Assembly (NCBI GenBank): GCA_017379935.1
Contig: JAFNVC010000025.1
Coordinates: forward strand, 1 to 44,216
Direction: 5' to 3'
Length of the DNA stretch: 44,216 nucleotides
Origin: Clostridia bacterium
Lineage (GTDB): Bacteria; Bacillota; Clostridia; Oscillospirales; Acutalibacteraceae
Part shown: in pieces, positions 3,030 through 9,207 of the stretch
Numbering within the stretch: the stretch's first letter is position 1
Layout of the letters: the number at the start of each line of letters is the position of its first letter
The notes under the pieces: model-generated
What the model saw: only the letters and a program-made list of their open reading frames with translations
What the model was told of the DNA's origin: nothing
Databases searched by the model: none
Program-made: the position numbers and the translations under genes

Positions 3030-4520
3030 TTAGAGTGCGACTCTGAAGAATCGTCTTTTTTCTGGTGGGAGACTAATACTTATATCCGAACATTTTATTA
3101 TTTCTACAGGGACGGTGTCTGCGCCGTCCCTGTAATTGAATACAATCAAAAGTTTATCGTCATAAACTATAACTGAATTTATAAAAATGTCTATCAAACG
3201 CTTTCTTCCTGAAAGACTCTCTATATTGAGGTTTCTGAGGTCGTTAAACCAACGGATGATATCTTCTTTTGAAAGTGTCGGTTTGCTGAGTTCTTCTTTA
3301 GCAATAAGAATTTCTGTTTCATTCCTCTCAGCTTCAAGTTGTTGCAATCTTTCTTTAGTTGAAGAAGTATACAGACCGTCTTCAATCGCAGTAACAAGAT
3401 TATTTATCTTCTTGACAATTTCTTTCAATTGGGCTTTGAGTGTTGGCAATACAACATTTTCAGTTTTCTGTTCTTTAAGAATATAATCTGCTATGTTCCC
3501 AATCACCTCATCACTCAAGAGAAAATTCTTAATCTTTTCAATCACTAAATCCTCAAGCTCTTCTTTCTTGAGTCCTTTTCTCTTTGTACAGCCTTTCTTA
3601 CGCTTGGCGTTTATACATTTATAGTAGCGGTATTTGTTGCCGTTACGGCTTGTCCCTATTTCTCCCACCCACAGAGAGCCACAGTCATTACAAATAAGTT
3701 TTGTTGTAAGCAGGTAATCATCACTTGCTTTATGTCTTGCTGTTGCTTTTTTATTTCGGGCAAAAGTCTTCTGAACTTCATTGAATAACTCTTCGGGAAC
3801 AATTTGAGGTATTTCTCCTTTATTCACAACATCACCGTATCTGTACTCACCTAAATACTTCCTGTTTTTAAGCAGATTAGTCATTGTTGTTATTGACATT
3901 TTCGTTCCGAGAGTGTTTCTCATTCCTTTGTTGTTTAAAATCTGCACAATTTCTTTGATGGTGTTTCCTTCGCGATATAACTTAAAAGCTTCAACAACAA
4001 ACGGTGCCGTTTCAGGGTCTACAACATATTTTCTGTTTGCATCAATCTTGTAACCGATAGTCAGCGTTCCGCCGTTAAACTTACTCTTAAGTGCATTTTC
4101 ATGATGACCTCTTTTAACTTTCTGAGCAAGTTCTTTGGAATAATACTCAGCCATACCTACAAGTACTGATTCCAAAATAACACCGTTGGGTTCATCTGAA
4201 ATATATTCGGTCGCAGAAAGAACTCTAACCCCATTATTGCTCAGTATGGCTTTGTATATTGCACTATCATATCTGTCACGAGAAAATCTGTCGAGCTTCC
4301 ACACAATAACATGGTCGAAGTTTTTACTTGAACTATCTCTAATCATTCTTTGAAAATCAGGTCGATTGTCTGTTCGTGCTGAACGTGCCCTATCAATATA
4401 TGTACCTACAATATTGAGGTTGTTCTTATCAGCATAAGCTTTACACTCACGCAGCTGACCTTCGATTGATTCTTCACGCTGAGAACTGCTCGAATATCTT
4501 GCATATATGACTGCATTCAT
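3030..4520 (-). CDS. Second large serine recombinase
   Basis: A 496-residue recombinase in the resolvase/large serine recombinase family. The N-terminus reads VIYARYSSSSQ with the likely nucleophile at Ser10, followed by WKLDRFSRDRYDS in the catalytic domain. A recombinase domain follows, then a zinc-ribbon (CNDCG and a later Cys pair), a coiled coil and a basic C-terminus. The ATG at 4520 is preferred over that at 4526 because GGAGGA then sits 7 bases upstream. It converges on the TnpX-like gene with only 59 bases between stop codons, and it differs from that protein in length and sequence, so the two are not recent duplicates. An 11-bp perfect inverted repeat lies within its last codons. 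Confidence 0.92.
   Translation of the reverse strand: MNAVIYARYSSSSQREESIEGQLRECKAYADKNNLNIVGTYIDRARSARTDNRPDFQRMIRDSSSKNFDHVIVWKLDRFSRDRYDSAIYKAILSNNGVRVLSATEYISDEPNGVILESVLVGMAEYYSKELAQKVKRGHHENALKSKFNGGTLTIGYKIDANRKYVVDPETAPFVVEAFKLYREGNTIKEIVQILNNKGMRNTLGTKMSITTMTNLLKNRKYLGEYRYGDVVNKGEIPQIVPEELFNEVQKTFARNKKATARHKASDDYLLTTKLICNDCGSLWVGEIGTSRNGNKYRYYKCINAKRKKGCTKRKGLKKEELEDLVIEKIKNFLLSDEVIGNIADYILKEQKTENVVLPTLKAQLKEIVKKINNLVTAIEDGLYTSSTKERLQQLEAERNETEILIAKEELSKPTLSKEDIIRWFNDLRNLNIESLSGRKRLIDIFINSVIVYDDKLLIVFNYRDGADTVPVEIIKCSDISISLPPEKRRFFRVAL
3105..3134. repeat. Perfect 11-bp inverted repeat inside the 3' end of the second recombinase gene
   Basis: TACAGGGACGG at 3105-3115 pairs with CCGTCCCTGTA at 3124-3134 across an 8-nt loop. 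It is GC-rich in an AT-rich gene. It could be an att-site arm or an RNA hairpin; coding constraint alone is a possible but less likely cause. Confidence 0.6.
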
Positions 4521-4591
4521 TTTCATTCCTCCATTCTGGATTTAATATAGCGCGCTTTTTCGCATTTGTAAAGGCCACAGCCTTTACTTTT

Positions 4592-4780
4592 TTAAGATAA
4601 TAAATTAAGAGTGTTTTCATTTTCTGAATTCCTTTCTTGTTTTTCATAATACGCGAGAATTTCCGGCAAGAAGTATCTCGCCAATTCTTCATATGCACTT
4701 TTCGGAATGTTTTCCGTTCCTTCCTTAATTTCAACTTTCATAACCTCCCCAACCTTTCCTTTCGTTGGGTTCTTTGACAT
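4592..4780 (-). CDS. Small acidic protein upstream of the second recombinase
   Basis: A 62-residue protein starting at ATG 4780, 7 bases after AAAGGAGG; a second possible start at 4741 is preceded by GGGGAGG. The main body (VEIKEGTENIPKSAYEELARYFLPEILAYY) is predicted helical. Small proteins of this kind are common just before clostridial large serine recombinases; whether this one acts as a directionality factor is speculation. An 86-residue frame overlapping it (4474-4734) has poorer composition and no good ribosome binding site. Its start lies inside the 3' end of the upstream minus-strand frame, which suggests translational coupling. Confidence 0.6.
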   Translation of the reverse strand: MSKNPTKGKVGEVMKVEIKEGTENIPKSAYEELARYFLPEILAYYEKQERNSENENTLNLLS

Positions 4781-5867
4781 TAACACACCTCCTTTCGTAG
4801 GGTTTTCTTTTTAATTTGCTAATCTCGTCGAAATAACCTTTTTCAATTGTCTGATAGTATGCATAAAGCTCCAATAATCGACCTTCATTACTTAACAAAT
4901 GCTTAATTTGATATGAAGAAAAACAAAAACTGATATTCTCGCTACTATTACGGTTGTTAAGTTTAATTATGTAGCCTTTGTTAACGAGATAATTAAATGC
5001 ATTTTGGGCATTTTTAAACTCCTCACTATCTTTCGACTCGTTTTCTGACAGTTTGCCTTCATTTTTTAATTCTGCTCTTACCATATCCCATGTAAAATCA
5101 TTAACAATCAAGGAATCAAAAACAATTTGTATAAACATTCCGTTAGATATAAAATTAATTCTAGAGTCATCAATTAATGAATATGGGTTCTCAAACAAAC
5201 TTAAAAAGGCTTTTCTAGTTTCTCCTGTAGATTTGAATGAAACCTTAAGCATAGAAGAATTATGTTCATAAATTGCACCATCATCTATCATTCTTACTTT
5301 GGAAGAGGATAAAAACTCAAATGTTTTTTCTATGCTTTTTCTACAAAACGACGGAACAAACATAGTGGTAAGCACTGTCTTATCTTTACAGTTTTCTTTA
5401 ATAGAAAGGTCAATTAAAAGATTATCTTTTTCCGTTTTCTTCTTAATTGCAGCACAAAGAGCTTTCCACCCTTGAGCTTTTTTATAACGTTCCGTAGGCA
5501 CTTCACCAAAATAGCATTTTTTCCAAATATCTTTATAATCTTTATGCAGTTCCGGTTCTTGATAAACGCTTAATCTACCTTGAGCAAGGAACATATCTTC
5601 AATATGAAGATGCGTATTAAAAGGAATGTCAGAAAACCAGATATATCCATCTTCATTGTCTTCTGTTTGAAAAGATTTCTTCATCGAATTAAACTCATAA
5701 GTAGGAATAGTAAGACCTTCAATTGAATAAATTGCTCCGCTTATAAATTCATCATTGATTTCTATTGCCGAGAATCTGGAAGAAGATTTTTGATTAGTTT
5801 CAAAAGTTTTCTTAATTCTTGAAACTAAATCTTTCTGATTTTTAATTTCAATAACGAGTGGATTGTC
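4731..5867 (-). pseudogene. Unidentified gene, 5' end missing at the junction
   Basis: The open frame runs without a stop from 5867 to 4731, but the first ATG (5684) lies about 60 codons inside it and there is no convincing ribosome binding site there. The stretch before that ATG looks like ordinary coding sequence, including LVIEIKNQKDL near the start, so I read this as a gene whose 5' end was removed rather than one starting at 5684. The rest is polar and Phe/Tyr/Asn-rich, with no signal peptide or membrane segment. I do not recognise the family. VIEIK resembles the E-x-K half of PD-(D/E)xK nucleases, but this is weak evidence. Its last 17 codons overlap the start of the next small gene. 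Confidence 0.6.
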
Positions 5868-7064
5868 TTATATTTCGGACTTCAGCTTGCAGGAAAAACA
5901 GCTATATTAACAGATACTGATATACCTTATGAAACGTTAATTGATCTTTGCAACAAATATAATACATCAACAGTTATAGATGGTTTCAACAGAAACAATC
6001 AGACCGTCAGTATATCTCATCCTGAACTTATCAATAATAATCATGCTACAGGTGCTTCAGTGACTATACAAGATGGTTCACAAATATCAACCGTTATATT
6101 CACATCTGGCACATCTGAAAACATACCTAAAGGTGTTGCTCTTAGTGAATCCGGGATTCTCACTTCCGCTTTTTATGGTCATCGTGCAGTTAACATAACC
6201 AATACCGATACACTTCTGCATATATTGCCATTTCACCATGCTTTTGGCTTGGCTGCAGAGGTAATTGCTCCCATTATGTCTAAAACGACTTTATGCTTTG
6301 GTGATAATCTCGGTACCATCGTAACCGATATAAATCATTATAAAGTGACCGCAATTTATGCCGTACCTCAAATCATACAAGGTTTGATGTTTTATCTAAA
6401 AAAAAGAGAATTACCCACCTTAAAAAAGATCACCAACGGTTCTGCTCCACTGAACAAGGAAATAGTTGAATCAATTTTATCTTATGATTTAAACCTTCAT
6501 CTTTCTTATGGCTTATCAGAATGTTCTCCATGTGTTGCAGTATCAAAACCTCTTGATGCTTTTGATGAATATTACAGCGGTAATATATTGCCTTGTTGTG
6601 ACATCACAATATCTCCCGACAGTGAAATCTGTGTTTCAGGAACAAATGTAATGCTAGGATACTATGACGGAAACAATGTAAATAAAGAGAATATTCATAA
6701 CGGACTTTTATACACTGGAGATACCGGTTATCTTAAGAACGATAAATTGTATGTTACCGGAAGGTTTAAAGACATTTTAGTTTTTAATAATGGCAAAAAA
6801 TACAACAAATCTTTCTTTGAGAAAAAAATCCTAGATCTTACATGTTCAAAGGAGTGTTTTGTGTTCGCAAGTGAGGATAGACTTAATATTATTCTCTACA
6901 AACCTGAGGAAATGTTTGATTTAAAAACGATAATTGAAGCTATGCCACAAGGCATTAAACTTGGTGATGTTTATGAAAGATTTGATACTTTAGCAAAAAA
7001 CAAGTTAAAGAAAGTTGTTAATTTACCAGAAATCCAATTATTGAACTGTAAAAAATTATACTAA
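5853..7064 (+). pseudogene. AMP-binding (acyl-adenylate-forming) enzyme, 5' end missing
   Basis: The frame contains the core motifs of the adenylate-forming superfamily: TSGTSENIPKGV (ATP-binding loop with a small change from TSGTTGxPKG), YGLSECSP, YTGDTGY and GRFKDILVF, and a C-terminal Lys-rich segment where the catalytic Lys is expected. These enzymes activate carboxylic acids as acyl-AMP. Homology-like sequence (NEWIVLYFGLQLAG) begins abruptly at about 5853; roughly 80-120 N-terminal residues normal for the family are missing, and the only start candidates are internal (GTG at 6060). The missing part would be at the other end of the inserted element. It ends 139 bases before the repeat-peptide gene, so it may once have belonged to that cluster. 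Confidence 0.75.
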
Positions 7065-7099
7065 ATACTATCCCCCTAAAACAGAAAATTATGCTTCGT

Positions 7100-7119
7100 A
7101 TATTATTAATACATAATAT
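7100..7119. promoter_or_regulatory. AT-rich palindrome upstream of the repeat-peptide gene
   Basis: ATATTAT at 7100-7106 and ATAATAT at 7113-7119 form a 7-bp inverted repeat in the 139-base gap before the precursor-like gene. It could contain the -10 region (TAATAT), but no clear -35 is visible. Confidence 0.3.
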
Positions 7120-7203
7120 TCAGGCGAGGAGATTTATGTCATGATTTACAAAAGCATACCACCTTAGCTAATAAAAATAATTTAATAGGAAGGAGGTGCA
7201 AAG

Positions 7204-7494
7204 ATGGGAGATTCAAACGGAGGCAGTTCATATAGCTACGGCAATGGTTATACAAGCTACAGCAATGGCAATAGCTCTTATGACCACGGAAACGGCTATA
7301 AGACATATTCTAACGGCGGTTCAAGCTACAGCTACGGCAACGGATACACAACATACAGTGATGGCGGTTCAAGCTTTAGTTACGGTAATGGTTATACAAC
7401 ATACAGTGATGGTGGCTCAAGCTTTAGCTATGGAAACGGATATACTTCTTATAGTGGAACATCCGGAACACCGAGTGGCGGCGGTGGTAAATAA
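7204..7494 (+). CDS. Tandem-repeat Tyr/Gly/Ser/Asn peptide, candidate RiPP precursor
   Basis: A 96-residue Cys-free protein. After MGDSN come five 16-residue repeats of the form GGSSYSYGNGYTTYSD, then a TSGTPSGGGGK tail. Repeat 2 is the most divergent (DHGNGYKT in place of SYGNGYTT); repeats 3-5 are nearly identical. There is no signal peptide, membrane segment or long leader. A perfect AAGGAGGTG lies 6 bases before the ATG, so high translation is likely. The radical SAM gene follows after 51 bases, which suggests a precursor modified by that enzyme. YGN and YSN/YSD occur in most repeats and fit the aromatic-X-Asn/Asp pattern of three-residue cyclophanes, but no modification is proven. It could instead be a small structural repeat protein. 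Confidence 0.75.
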   Translation: MGDSNGGSSYSYGNGYTSYSNGNSSYDHGNGYKTYSNGGSSYSYGNGYTTYSDGGSSFSYGNGYTTYSDGGSSFSYGNGYTSYSGTSGTPSGGGGK

Positions 7495-7505
7495 AAAAAT
7501 AAAAA

Positions 7506-7529
7506 GGGTGGTGGCCGTCACCACCACCC
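7506..7529 (+). promoter_or_regulatory. 9-bp hairpin between peptide gene and radical SAM gene
   Basis: GGGTGGTGG (7506-7514) and CCACCACCC (7521-7529) are perfectly complementary with a 6-nt loop. No T-tract follows; instead the ribosome binding site AAGGAG begins within two bases. This arrangement fits a transcript-stabilising or attenuating element that makes much more precursor than enzyme. Confidence 0.7.
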
Positions 7530-7545
7530 GAAGGAGTAAAATAAA

Positions 7546-8565
7546 ATGGCAAATATTATGATAAATGAAATATGTAATTTAAGATGCCCATATTGTTTTG
7601 CAGATGAATTTGTTAATAAAAATCCCAAAGAAATGTCAATGGAGGATTTTGATACTGCATTAAATTTTGCGCTCTCATCAGGATATGATGAAAGAATAGG
7701 TTTGATAGGCGGAGAACCAACTCTACATAGTCACTTCAAAGAAATCCTTATAAAATTAATTAATGATAACAGAGTAAAAAACGTTACTATTTTCACAAAT
7801 GGTGTTAAAATAAATGAATATCTGAATGAAATTTCTCATCCTAAAATTCATTTGCTTATAAATTGCAATTCTCCTGAAAATATGGAAACAAAGGCTTATG
7901 AAACTATGGTTGCAAATATCAAAGAAATGATATCAAACAGATATTATAAAGAAAAAATCACTTTAGGTATAAATATGTATAAACCCGATTTTGATTACGA
8001 ATATATACTTGAATTATTGAAACAATTTGACTTGAAATCCGTCAGAACTTCAATCTCTGTGCCTAATGATTTAGCCTACCTTGTAAATCCCTTGAATTAT
8101 TTTAGTATAATGAAGCCTCGTGTTCTTGAATTTTTCGACAAATTAAAAGATGCAAATATTATACCATTCTTTGATTGTAATGCTATGCCTGTTTGTATTT
8201 GGTCAGAAGATGAACGAACTCGTATATTGCAGGATTTCCCTGAAGTAAAAAACAAAACCAACATCTTTAACACTTATGTTTCTTGCAGTCCCATAATCGA
8301 CATTCTTCCGGACTTAACAATTATTCGTTGCTTCGGACTTTCAGAACATACAAAAAAGAAAATTTCAGACTTTAAAAACATTGAAGATGCACGAAATTAT
8401 TATGCAAGAACAATCGATTCGTTTGCTTGTAATACTTACCATTCTAAAGAATGTATCTCCTGTTATGAAAGAGAAAACGGAAAATGTAATGGAGGTTGTT
8501 TGTGTTTCAAAATCAAGGATATCAAAAAAATTAACAACTTCTGTAATTCGTTGTATAAGGAATAA
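7546..8565 (+). CDS. Radical SAM enzyme with SPASM-like C-terminus, candidate peptide maturase
   Basis: A 339-residue enzyme. The 4Fe-4S/SAM motif CNLRCPYC (Cys10, Cys14, Cys17) lies almost at the N-terminus, followed by GGEP at 55-58. The C-terminal region (about 246-330) has C-x13-C with a PDLTIIRC ending, then CISC-x7-C-x3-C-x-C, close to the SPASM auxiliary-cluster layout used by peptide-modifying radical SAM enzymes. No RiPP recognition element precedes the radical SAM core. The gene follows the Tyr/Gly repeat peptide with a hairpin and AAGGAG between, so the peptide is the obvious substrate; the reaction is unknown. With no Cys in the peptide, thioether (sactipeptide/ranthipeptide) chemistry is excluded. 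Confidence 0.85.
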   Translation: MANIMINEICNLRCPYCFADEFVNKNPKEMSMEDFDTALNFALSSGYDERIGLIGGEPTLHSHFKEILIKLINDNRVKNVTIFTNGVKINEYLNEISHPKIHLLINCNSPENMETKAYETMVANIKEMISNRYYKEKITLGINMYKPDFDYEYILELLKQFDLKSVRTSISVPNDLAYLVNPLNYFSIMKPRVLEFFDKLKDANIIPFFDCNAMPVCIWSEDERTRILQDFPEVKNKTNIFNTYVSCSPIIDILPDLTIIRCFGLSEHTKKKISDFKNIEDARNYYARTIDSFACNTYHSKECISCYERENGKCNGGCLCFKIKDIKKINNFCNSLYKE

Positions 8566-8648
8566 AAGTGCCACAATTCTCAACTTCACACAACATCCAT
8601 CTCCGTCTGAAAAACTTTTAAATAAGAAAGCTATTTGTATAAAGATAA

Positions 8649-8694
8649 AAACCAGATAACACGGTGTTGTTCATGTTATCTAGTTTGGTTTTTT
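8649..8694 (+). terminator. Rho-independent terminator after the radical SAM gene
   Basis: AGATAACA and TGTTATCT form an 8-bp stem, extended by partial pairing of AACC with GGTT, and a run of T follows. It lies 84 bases after the radical SAM stop codon and closes the peptide/radical SAM unit. Confidence 0.75.
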
Positions 8695-8741
8695 CAAGAT
8701 TGAATTATGCTGTTTTTTTGGTGATTTTTGTGTTATTTAGT

Positions 8742-8806
8742 GACTGTTTGAAACAGTCGCAAATACTCTGAACCCTCGTAGAATCAACGGTTTCGGCTAT
8801 TCAGAG
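8742..8806. repeat. Two nested palindromes between the island and the tRNAs
   Basis: GACTGTTTGAAACAGTC (8742-8758) is a perfect 8+8 palindrome. Then CTCTGAA (8766-8772) pairs with TTCAGAG (8800-8806). They lie in non-coding DNA between the island terminator and the tRNA terminator. An att-site or an operator is possible; neither is shown. Confidence 0.45.
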
Positions 8807-8817
8807 ATAAACAAAAA

Positions 8818-8854
8818 ATCCGAACGCTTCACCAATTGGTAAAATGTTCGGATT
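8818..8854 (-). terminator. Terminator of the tRNA transcript
   Basis: AATCCGAAC and GTTCGGATT are complementary 9-mers. Reading the minus strand the stem is followed by a T-rich run, as expected for a terminator just after tRNA-Tyr. Confidence 0.75.
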
Positions 8855-8863
8855 ATCCTTTGC

Positions 8864-8948
8864 TGGTGGGTGAGGGTGGATTCGAACCACCGAAGTCACT
8901 GACGACAGATTTACAGTCTGTTCCCTTTGGCCACTCGGGAACTCACCC
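8864..8948 (-). tRNA. tRNA-Tyr (GUA)
   Basis: An 85-nt tRNA with GGGTGAG acceptor pairing to CTCACCC, discriminator A and an encoded CCA. The anticodon loop reads CTGTAAA (anticodon GTA), the T-loop GGTTCGAATCC is intact, and the long variable arm is typical of bacterial tRNA-Tyr. Confidence 0.96.
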
Positions 8949-8960
8949 ATATAAAAATAA

Positions 8961-9036
8961 TGGAGCTGGTGGACGGACTCGAACCCCCGACCTGCTGATT
9001 ACAAATCAGCTGCTCTACCAACTGAGCTACACCAGC
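8961..9036 (-). tRNA. tRNA-Thr (UGU)
   Basis: A 76-nt tRNA with GCTGGTG acceptor stem, encoded CCA, anticodon TGT in the loop TTTGTAA, and GGTTCGAGTCC T-loop. It is 12 bases upstream of tRNA-Tyr and shares its promoter. Confidence 0.96.
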
Positions 9037-9052
9037 GTCTCAACGCTCGTAT

Positions 9053-9081
9053 ACTATACCATAACCAAAATATTTTGTCAA
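9053..9081 (-). promoter_or_regulatory. Promoter of the tRNA-Thr/tRNA-Tyr unit
   Basis: On the minus strand TTGACA (9076-9081) and TATAGT (9053-9058) are separated by 17 bases, just upstream of tRNA-Thr. This is a near-consensus housekeeping promoter. Confidence 0.85.
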
Positions 9082-9207
9082 CACTTTTTTTGAAAAATTT
9101 TGATTATTTTTTCAGACATATTTTCATTCCTGAAATACCGTAAAAGCCTATGCTTTCAGCTTAACAAATTTTAATTTGTCGGGGAGATGAAATGTCACAG
9201 AAACCCA

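Follow-up and report, generated by a model that had tools for sequence, protein, structure and literature searches.

What does a radical S-adenosylmethionine (SAM) enzyme do beside the gene of a short tyrosine-rich repeat peptide, and could that peptide be its substrate? The question is raised by a 44,216-nucleotide stretch of DNA from a Clostridia bacterium that is probably an anaerobe (contig JAFNVC010000025.1 of assembly GCA_017379935.1; hereafter, the window). An initial annotation made from its letters alone had described a Cys-free 96-residue peptide of five 16-residue repeats, encoded 51 bases before a radical SAM gene, and had proposed that the enzyme may crosslink the tyrosines of the repeats. 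The arrangement was confirmed, and Tyr-rich repeat peptides recur beside some homologous enzymes, a pairing that hints at a little-known way to change many tyrosines in one chain.

A constrained repeat peptide beside a cysteine-rich radical SAM enzyme

The peptide gene occupies positions 7204-7494 of the plus strand, behind a strong ribosome site (Shine-Dalgarno AAGGAGG, 7190-7196, same strand), and the list of open reading frames (ORFs) holds no longer in-frame start. Its 96-residue product consists of a few residues, five 16-residue Tyr/Gly/Ser/Asn repeats and a GGGGK end, with no Cys and two Lys, one within repeat 2 and the other C-terminal. TRF found a single array in the window, the 48-base units inside this gene, and GNGY recurs at residue offsets 12, 28, 44, 60 and 76, five copies spaced by exactly 16 residues. 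When the five units were compared with each other, the proportion of synonymous differences (pS) was 0.90 and that of nonsynonymous differences (pN) 0.25, giving an in-frame ratio of 0.28, while the other two frames of the same strand gave 1.40 and 1.54. Since pS is high and pN low in the coding frame only, the repeats are old and have been selected as protein.

After an intergenic gap of 51 bases (7495-7545) follows the radical SAM gene (7546-8565, plus strand), intact, with its own ribosome site and encoding 339 residues. The CNLRCPYC motif already noticed by the initial annotation lies at residues 10-17 (PF04055, E 5.8e-17). Besides this CxxxCxxC core, the enzyme has eight auxiliary cysteines, arranged as CX5C (C211, C217), CX14C (C247, C262) and CX2CX7CX3C (C303, C306, C314, C318), all of them conserved in the enzyme family (20-row comparison; 11-row alignment). 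The seven-cysteine pattern of SPASM domains reads CX9-15GX4C, CX2CX5CX3C, C. The window enzyme departs from it in spacing; the conserved last cysteine was not found in the 20 rows of its family, the SPASM model PF13186 had no match in the enzyme at E up to 1, and TIGR04085 (cut-off 27) was not among the best 25 of 44 rows, the lowest of which scored 19.7 bits. The earlier description of a SPASM-like cysteine set is thus correct only in part.

The enzyme lies below every NCBIfam cut-off, and its best rows (MoaA, viperin, TrsS and PapB) all fall far short, the MoaA models at 49.9-50.8 bits (cut-off 231-325) and viperin at 46.6 (cut-off 180). The pVip match covers residues 2-114 only, and a defence function of the viperin kind was rejected because the match is confined to the radical SAM core. 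Matches in a search of PDB profiles also end by position 187 of 334, and so within that core. Domain scans covered six window proteins, and the earlier remark that no protease or transporter is visible is to be read within that range; no Pfam match to a PqqD/RRE-type domain was found in the enzyme, in agreement with the earlier description of an enzyme lacking a recognition domain. An AlphaFold2 model built from the window, L002 and L003 sequences had a mean predicted local distance difference test score (pLDDT) of 59.7, with most of residues 236-339 below 50; Foldseek found one structure for it at E up to 0.001 (TigE, TM 0.38), which we did not count as evidence. A further prediction, from six sequences, reached a mean pLDDT of 71.7, with residues 294-339 still below 50. 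The nearest structures of the predicted fold include SPASM or twitch enzymes, with viperin and MoaA no more than about 2 Z units behind and with low confidence for residues 294-339, and the structures of SuiB, SkfB and anSME share 12-15% identity with it. As modelled, the fold is closest to peptide-modifying radical SAM enzymes, with a C-terminal Cys region that is unreliable.

Recurrence of the pairing among enzyme homologues

Homologues of the enzyme are rare. They were found in 2 of 198 relatives (E 1e-15), 3 of 394 genomes of the order (E 1e-20), 3 of 391 of the class (profile, E 1e-30), 5 of 398 of the family (query G054 enzyme, E 1e-20) and 4 of 299 of the phylum (profile, E 1e-50); the draws overlap, and the window's own genome is part of every count. 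The 17 genomes listed from the window's genus gave no match (E 1e-15), and the genus of the G1045 genome gave 1 of 7, the f197 family 6 of 25 and the family of G521 1 of 11. Two Clostridiales contigs from metagenome-assembled genomes and one PLSDB plasmid match supplied further homologues. Two genomes (G1313 and G1337) carry two copies each.

A Tyr-rich repeat peptide is encoded within 0.9 kb of the enzyme gene at 11 of 20 homologous loci, namely the window, G054, G1045 and eight loci of f197. Since the f197 loci are near-copies, we count three unrelated peptide kinds and not eleven events. A first scan for Tyr-rich low-complexity ORFs (12 loci) had found three, all in the enzyme's cluster. 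A second, whose uniform rule was set after the peptides were known, found 13 Tyr-rich ORFs among 2137 ORFs in 354322 bases at 23 loci. Of these 13, 11 lie no more than 864 bases from the enzyme gene, and the remaining two sit right at the threshold of 0.70; both scans covered fetched stretches around the loci rather than whole genomes. On the tree the repeat-peptide label needs four changes, a number as low being reached in 12 of 500 shuffles, and 3 of its 17 inner branches are well supported.

The closest parallel, G054, belongs to the same family as the window and has an enzyme 45-46% identical to that of the window. Its 100-residue Tyr/Gly peptide has five units spaced exactly 16 apart, in another wording, and both peptides have a GG[GS]GK C-terminal end and one further Lys. 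The G054 gene run comprises the peptide, an acyl carrier protein (ACP)-like protein, the enzyme, a GNAT protein, a Cys-rich protein, a U32 protein, a GNAT-like protein (by eye) and a ligase. The G1045 peptide (116 residues) has about 40 residues before two blocks with nine YYS[DE] units in all, of the (YYSDT)n type. Its neighbours are DUF5685, a protein that matches U32 weakly and a radical SAM enzyme of the DynA/sulfatase-maturase kind that did not match the SPASM model itself. The f197 repeat proteins are larger (243-310 residues), with YSN/YGN runs and, by eye, a long signal-like N-terminus, and at the same loci are a U32 gene and a further radical SAM gene whose product has 484-504 residues (the scans with the U32 and SPASM models, both of which matched, cover L041 only). 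The YSN-run proteins lie past pilin-like and prepilin peptidase genes, with a Peptidase_A24 match in L041.

The proposed pairing of precursor and maturase is thus kept as a five-by-16 peptide plus enzyme in the window and in G054, and with other Tyr repeats in two further lineages. The near absence of a leader, also claimed earlier, holds for the window, where few residues precede the repeats, and for G054, but extends neither to G1045 nor to f197. Neither the leader nor the recognition domain looked for in a pair making ribosomally synthesised and post-translationally modified peptides (RiPPs) was found in the window; some RiPPs do without both. One uncharacterised radical SAM family with an auxiliary-Cys pattern of its own has in this way three differently worded Tyr-repeat candidate substrates, and its chemistry can therefore be asked directly.

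Tyrosine motifs and candidate chemistry

Our favoured explanation is that the ribosomal substrate of the enzyme would be the peptide encoded 51 bases upstream, a step we hold with good confidence. Because there is almost no leader, the enzyme would bind the repeats directly and then act on tyrosines along the chain, modifying Tyr-bearing motifs at least once per 16-residue repeat; tyrosine is the likely site, with somewhat less assurance. The chemistry would most likely be radical C-C coupling, joining the Tyr ring to the beta carbon of the Asn or Asp at i+2 (YGN, YSN, YSD), yielding up to eight three-residue rings per window peptide, and to such a cyclophane product we give tentative credence, a little short of even. 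For the explanation as a whole (substrate, modification of tyrosine in each repeat, most likely a cyclophane) we see the balance as level.

The motifs that suggest this chemistry are present in all three peptide kinds (YGN, YSN and YSD in the window, YSD in G1045, YSN and YGN in f197). The window peptide has eight [YWF]-X-[ND] motifs plus one His-Gly-Asn, so that the "about nine" modifications of the initial annotation become eight, the ninth needing the histidine. Under free shuffling, Tyr-X-Asn/Asp counts as high arose in 2 of 5000 trials for the window peptide and in 0 of 5000 for G1045 and for each of three f197 proteins tested. Aromatic-X-Asn/Asp motifs are likewise those of the triceptides, made by XncB, OscB, MscB, YxdB and YhhB (PMC11002830), among which YxdB, with substrate motif YxD, joins Tyr C3 to the Asp beta carbon (PMC11002830).

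Several results weigh against the favoured explanation. Triceptide enzymes are described as SPASM-type (PMC11002830), whereas the window enzyme has no SPASM match and reaches no cyclophane-maturase cut-off; since membership of these models was tested and the enzyme falls outside them, we do not class the window system as a triceptide. With the repeats kept, the motif excess in the window peptide shrinks to 1079 of 20000 shuffles (p about 0.05), and in G054 Tyr-X-Asn/Asp is not enriched at all (1503 of 5000 free and 9085 of 20000 repeat-keeping shuffles). G1045 and f197 offer another radical SAM enzyme that might make the links. Moreover, 9 of the 20 loci are without a repeat peptide (G1073, G521, L002, L003, G371, G319, G585, a Chlorohelix plasmid and G948, with L003 and G371 on contig ends); the initial annotation had named homologues found widely without such a peptide as evidence against its pair, and this is partly the case. 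Our grading of substrate, site and product takes in the shared motifs and the YxdB precedent as well as the weak motif excess, its lack in G054 and the other radical SAM enzyme at hand in G1045 and f197.

The best-shared wording of the window and G054 peptides is SYG, present in 4 of 5 and 5 of 5 repeats, respectively. Spliceases act at XYG, with loss of tyramine, and comparable chemistry at SYG would excise a tyramine equivalent and leave an alpha-keto-beta-amino residue in each repeat. However, G1045 has one YG, placed before the repeats, and most f197 repeat units are YSN, and we consider excision very improbable.

Repeated modification of one chain is in principle already known, because the TvgA precursor is modified many times by a radical SAM enzyme (PMC9062424). 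Like the window, the TvgA/TvgB poly-cyclopropylglycine system sets one such enzyme beside a short-repeat precursor; it differs in its TVGG repeats, valine chemistry and dioxygenase and transporter genes and has no Tyr repeats (PMC9062424). In the parts of the open-licence PMC literature covered, we found neither this enzyme family, nor a five-by-16 Tyr/Gly peptide with C-terminal Lys, nor the company of U32, nor a peptide substrate of a U32 oxidase; literature on U32 with radical SAM RiPPs and on DUF5685 gave nothing relevant, and the remaining literature brought up other systems, judging by titles and the opening lines of abstracts. Should tyrosines be cross-linked or hydroxylated along the chain, the family would provide an oxygen-free route to modified Tyr-rich polymers, and nearly leaderless repeat precursors would bear on how enzymes without a recognition domain find their substrates.

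Partner genes and surroundings of the window

In some relatives a U32-type iron-sulphur (Fe-S) protein may add further steps, ring hydroxylation being a natural guess. U32 (PF01136) adjoins the enzyme in G054 (6.3e-26), G1073 (1.4e-24) and f197 L041 (1.7e-11), with the seven other f197 loci alike by eye, and below the cut-off in G1045 (0.0072) and, only just under, in the phage contig L089 (1.1e-4). The G054 and G1073 proteins have TrhP and UbiU as their best named kin, also below cut-off, and a Cys spacing similar to CX6CX16CX38C of UbiU (PMC6747719); against PDB profiles the U32 set gave one chance-level row (E 0.098).

From this company one may read radical SAM enzyme and U32 oxidase as an O2-independent tyrosine-oxidising cassette that hydroxylates rings on Tyr/Gly repeats to a product like 3,4-dihydroxyphenylalanine (DOPA), with or without later cross-linking. 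Hydroxylation of aromatic residues by a metalloenzyme followed by radical SAM coupling has a precedent in biphenomycin-like RiPPs, although the hydroxylase there is another one (MNIO), the radical SAM enzyme is B12-dependent and the motif is FHAFRF (PMC12257519). The described substrates of U32 oxidases such as UbiU/UbiV and TrhP are quinone precursors and RNA (PMC11574389), G1073 has its U32 gene without a repeat peptide, and the window's own assembly (84.84% complete) has no U32 match at E 1e-6. For the second Cys-rich protein of G054 and G1073 neither Pfam nor NCBIfam offered a matching model, and its standing as a proven UbiV homologue was not supported, since a profile alignment with the U32 set gave a probability of 1.1%. 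We judge tyrosine oxidation by such a cassette improbable. A wider version is just as doubtful: a sparse but broad cassette of an eleven-Cys radical SAM enzyme, often with a U32 Fe-S oxidase, that would oxidise or cross-link tyrosines both in larger, apparently secreted proteins and in long repeat peptides of Tyr, Gly, Ser and Asn. It would be an O2-free equivalent of adhesive proteins that carry DOPA or crosslinked tyrosine, and its relatives would include those on phage contigs.

The G054 run also encodes an ACP-like protein that contains LGxxS (PF00550 at E 0.006, under the cut-off), a GNAT protein (PF13420 1.2e-11) and an AMP-ligase (PF00501 7.2e-35), which might add further steps, acylation being the natural guess here. 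In the window, an AMP-binding acyl ligase without its N-terminus, absent from the initial annotation, lies directly upstream of the peptide gene (5868-7064, plus strand; PF00501, residues from 6060), and the distant G948 cluster has an ACP as well (PF00550 5.9e-10). Ligase and ACP could thus load an acyl group that a GNAT protein transfers to lysine, for which the GG[GS]GK end and the further Lys of both peptides would provide sites, the radical enzyme being ancillary. Yet the ligase of the window is a truncated one; among the ligases compared it matches that of the G054 cluster best (148 bits, next 134), but not reciprocally. No ACP was found adjoining the window genes, and by eye G1045, G1073 and f197 have neither ligase nor ACP close to the enzyme. 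We hold out little hope for acylation as the main pathway.

The ligase reading frame opens at 5868, and a minus-strand ORF (4731-5684) stays open to the same junction near 5866, which marks a mobile-element edge or else a joint made in assembly, a chimera. Beyond it lie two large serine recombinase genes on opposite strands (1258-2970 and 3030-4526), preceded by an ORF that looks ParB-like by eye. Such a neighbourhood, with the lack of same-genus matches and of a U32 gene, could mean that no working pathway exists here, peptide and enzyme being an intact remnant cut off from operon and partners. Chance could also have brought them together, in which case the enzyme would act on some other protein, as may be so at the molybdenum (Mo)-oxidoreductase loci. 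Consistently with this, the only match in the window assembly to the second radical SAM enzyme of G1045 (E 1e-8) is a protein resembling sulfatase maturases, which stays just under the cut-offs of the models and adjoins a sulfatase-like gene, so that no second radical SAM partner of the G1045 kind was found in this 84.84% complete assembly. These absences are weak evidence because the assembly is incomplete. Against a remnant or chance stand the intact frames with their ribosome sites and the constraint on the repeats, and we regard it as unlikely, though to be taken seriously.

Another use of the enzyme family is suggested by homologues beside molybdopterin oxidoreductase genes, at L002 and L025 (45% and 26% identical to that of the window, PF00384 in both), and the G585 locus has a Mo oxidoreductase. 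The G1073 locus combines U32 and the Cys-rich protein with a weak polyprenyl-synthase match. In G521 (L024 9000-19000), several radical SAM genes, a SPASM enzyme among them, surround a 48% identical homologue, together with M16 peptidase genes (two matched, a third by eye) and a weak squalene-cyclase match. A small ORF before the Chlorohelix homologue, PqqD-like by eye, had no Pfam match and was set aside.

Between the peptide and enzyme genes lies a G+C-rich hairpin (7506-7529, plus strand, -18.9 kcal/mol). The stretch 7485-7560 has a hairpin z of -2.97, with 0 of 200 shuffles equally good, and the hairpin resembles a terminator only if read on the minus strand. Behind the enzyme, tRNA-Tyr and tRNA-Thr genes lie on the opposite strand (8864-9036), and a Rfam scan of 5600-9200 gave these two tRNAs and nothing else; a tRNA-Tyr next to a Tyr-rich peptide system is probably a coincidence.

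No enzyme match was found among INPHARED phages at E 1e-5, and 78 viral loci matched in IMG/VR, the best 3 of 78 being L088-L090. On the phage-type contig L089 (64-2039) the same radical SAM family stands beside the weak U32 match, with a terminase gene (PF03237 1.8e-29) not far away, and L088 (3840-6107), also phage-type, carries two tandem copies of it. Finally, at L074 7472-7979 (G371), three tandem small ORFs of 47-57 residues end in DWTY[SNG]D...CCC; a HELAH protein precedes them, a DUF5685 protein (PF18937 1.8e-24) and a DynA-like SPASM radical SAM enzyme follow, and the three are likely to form a separate precursor family.
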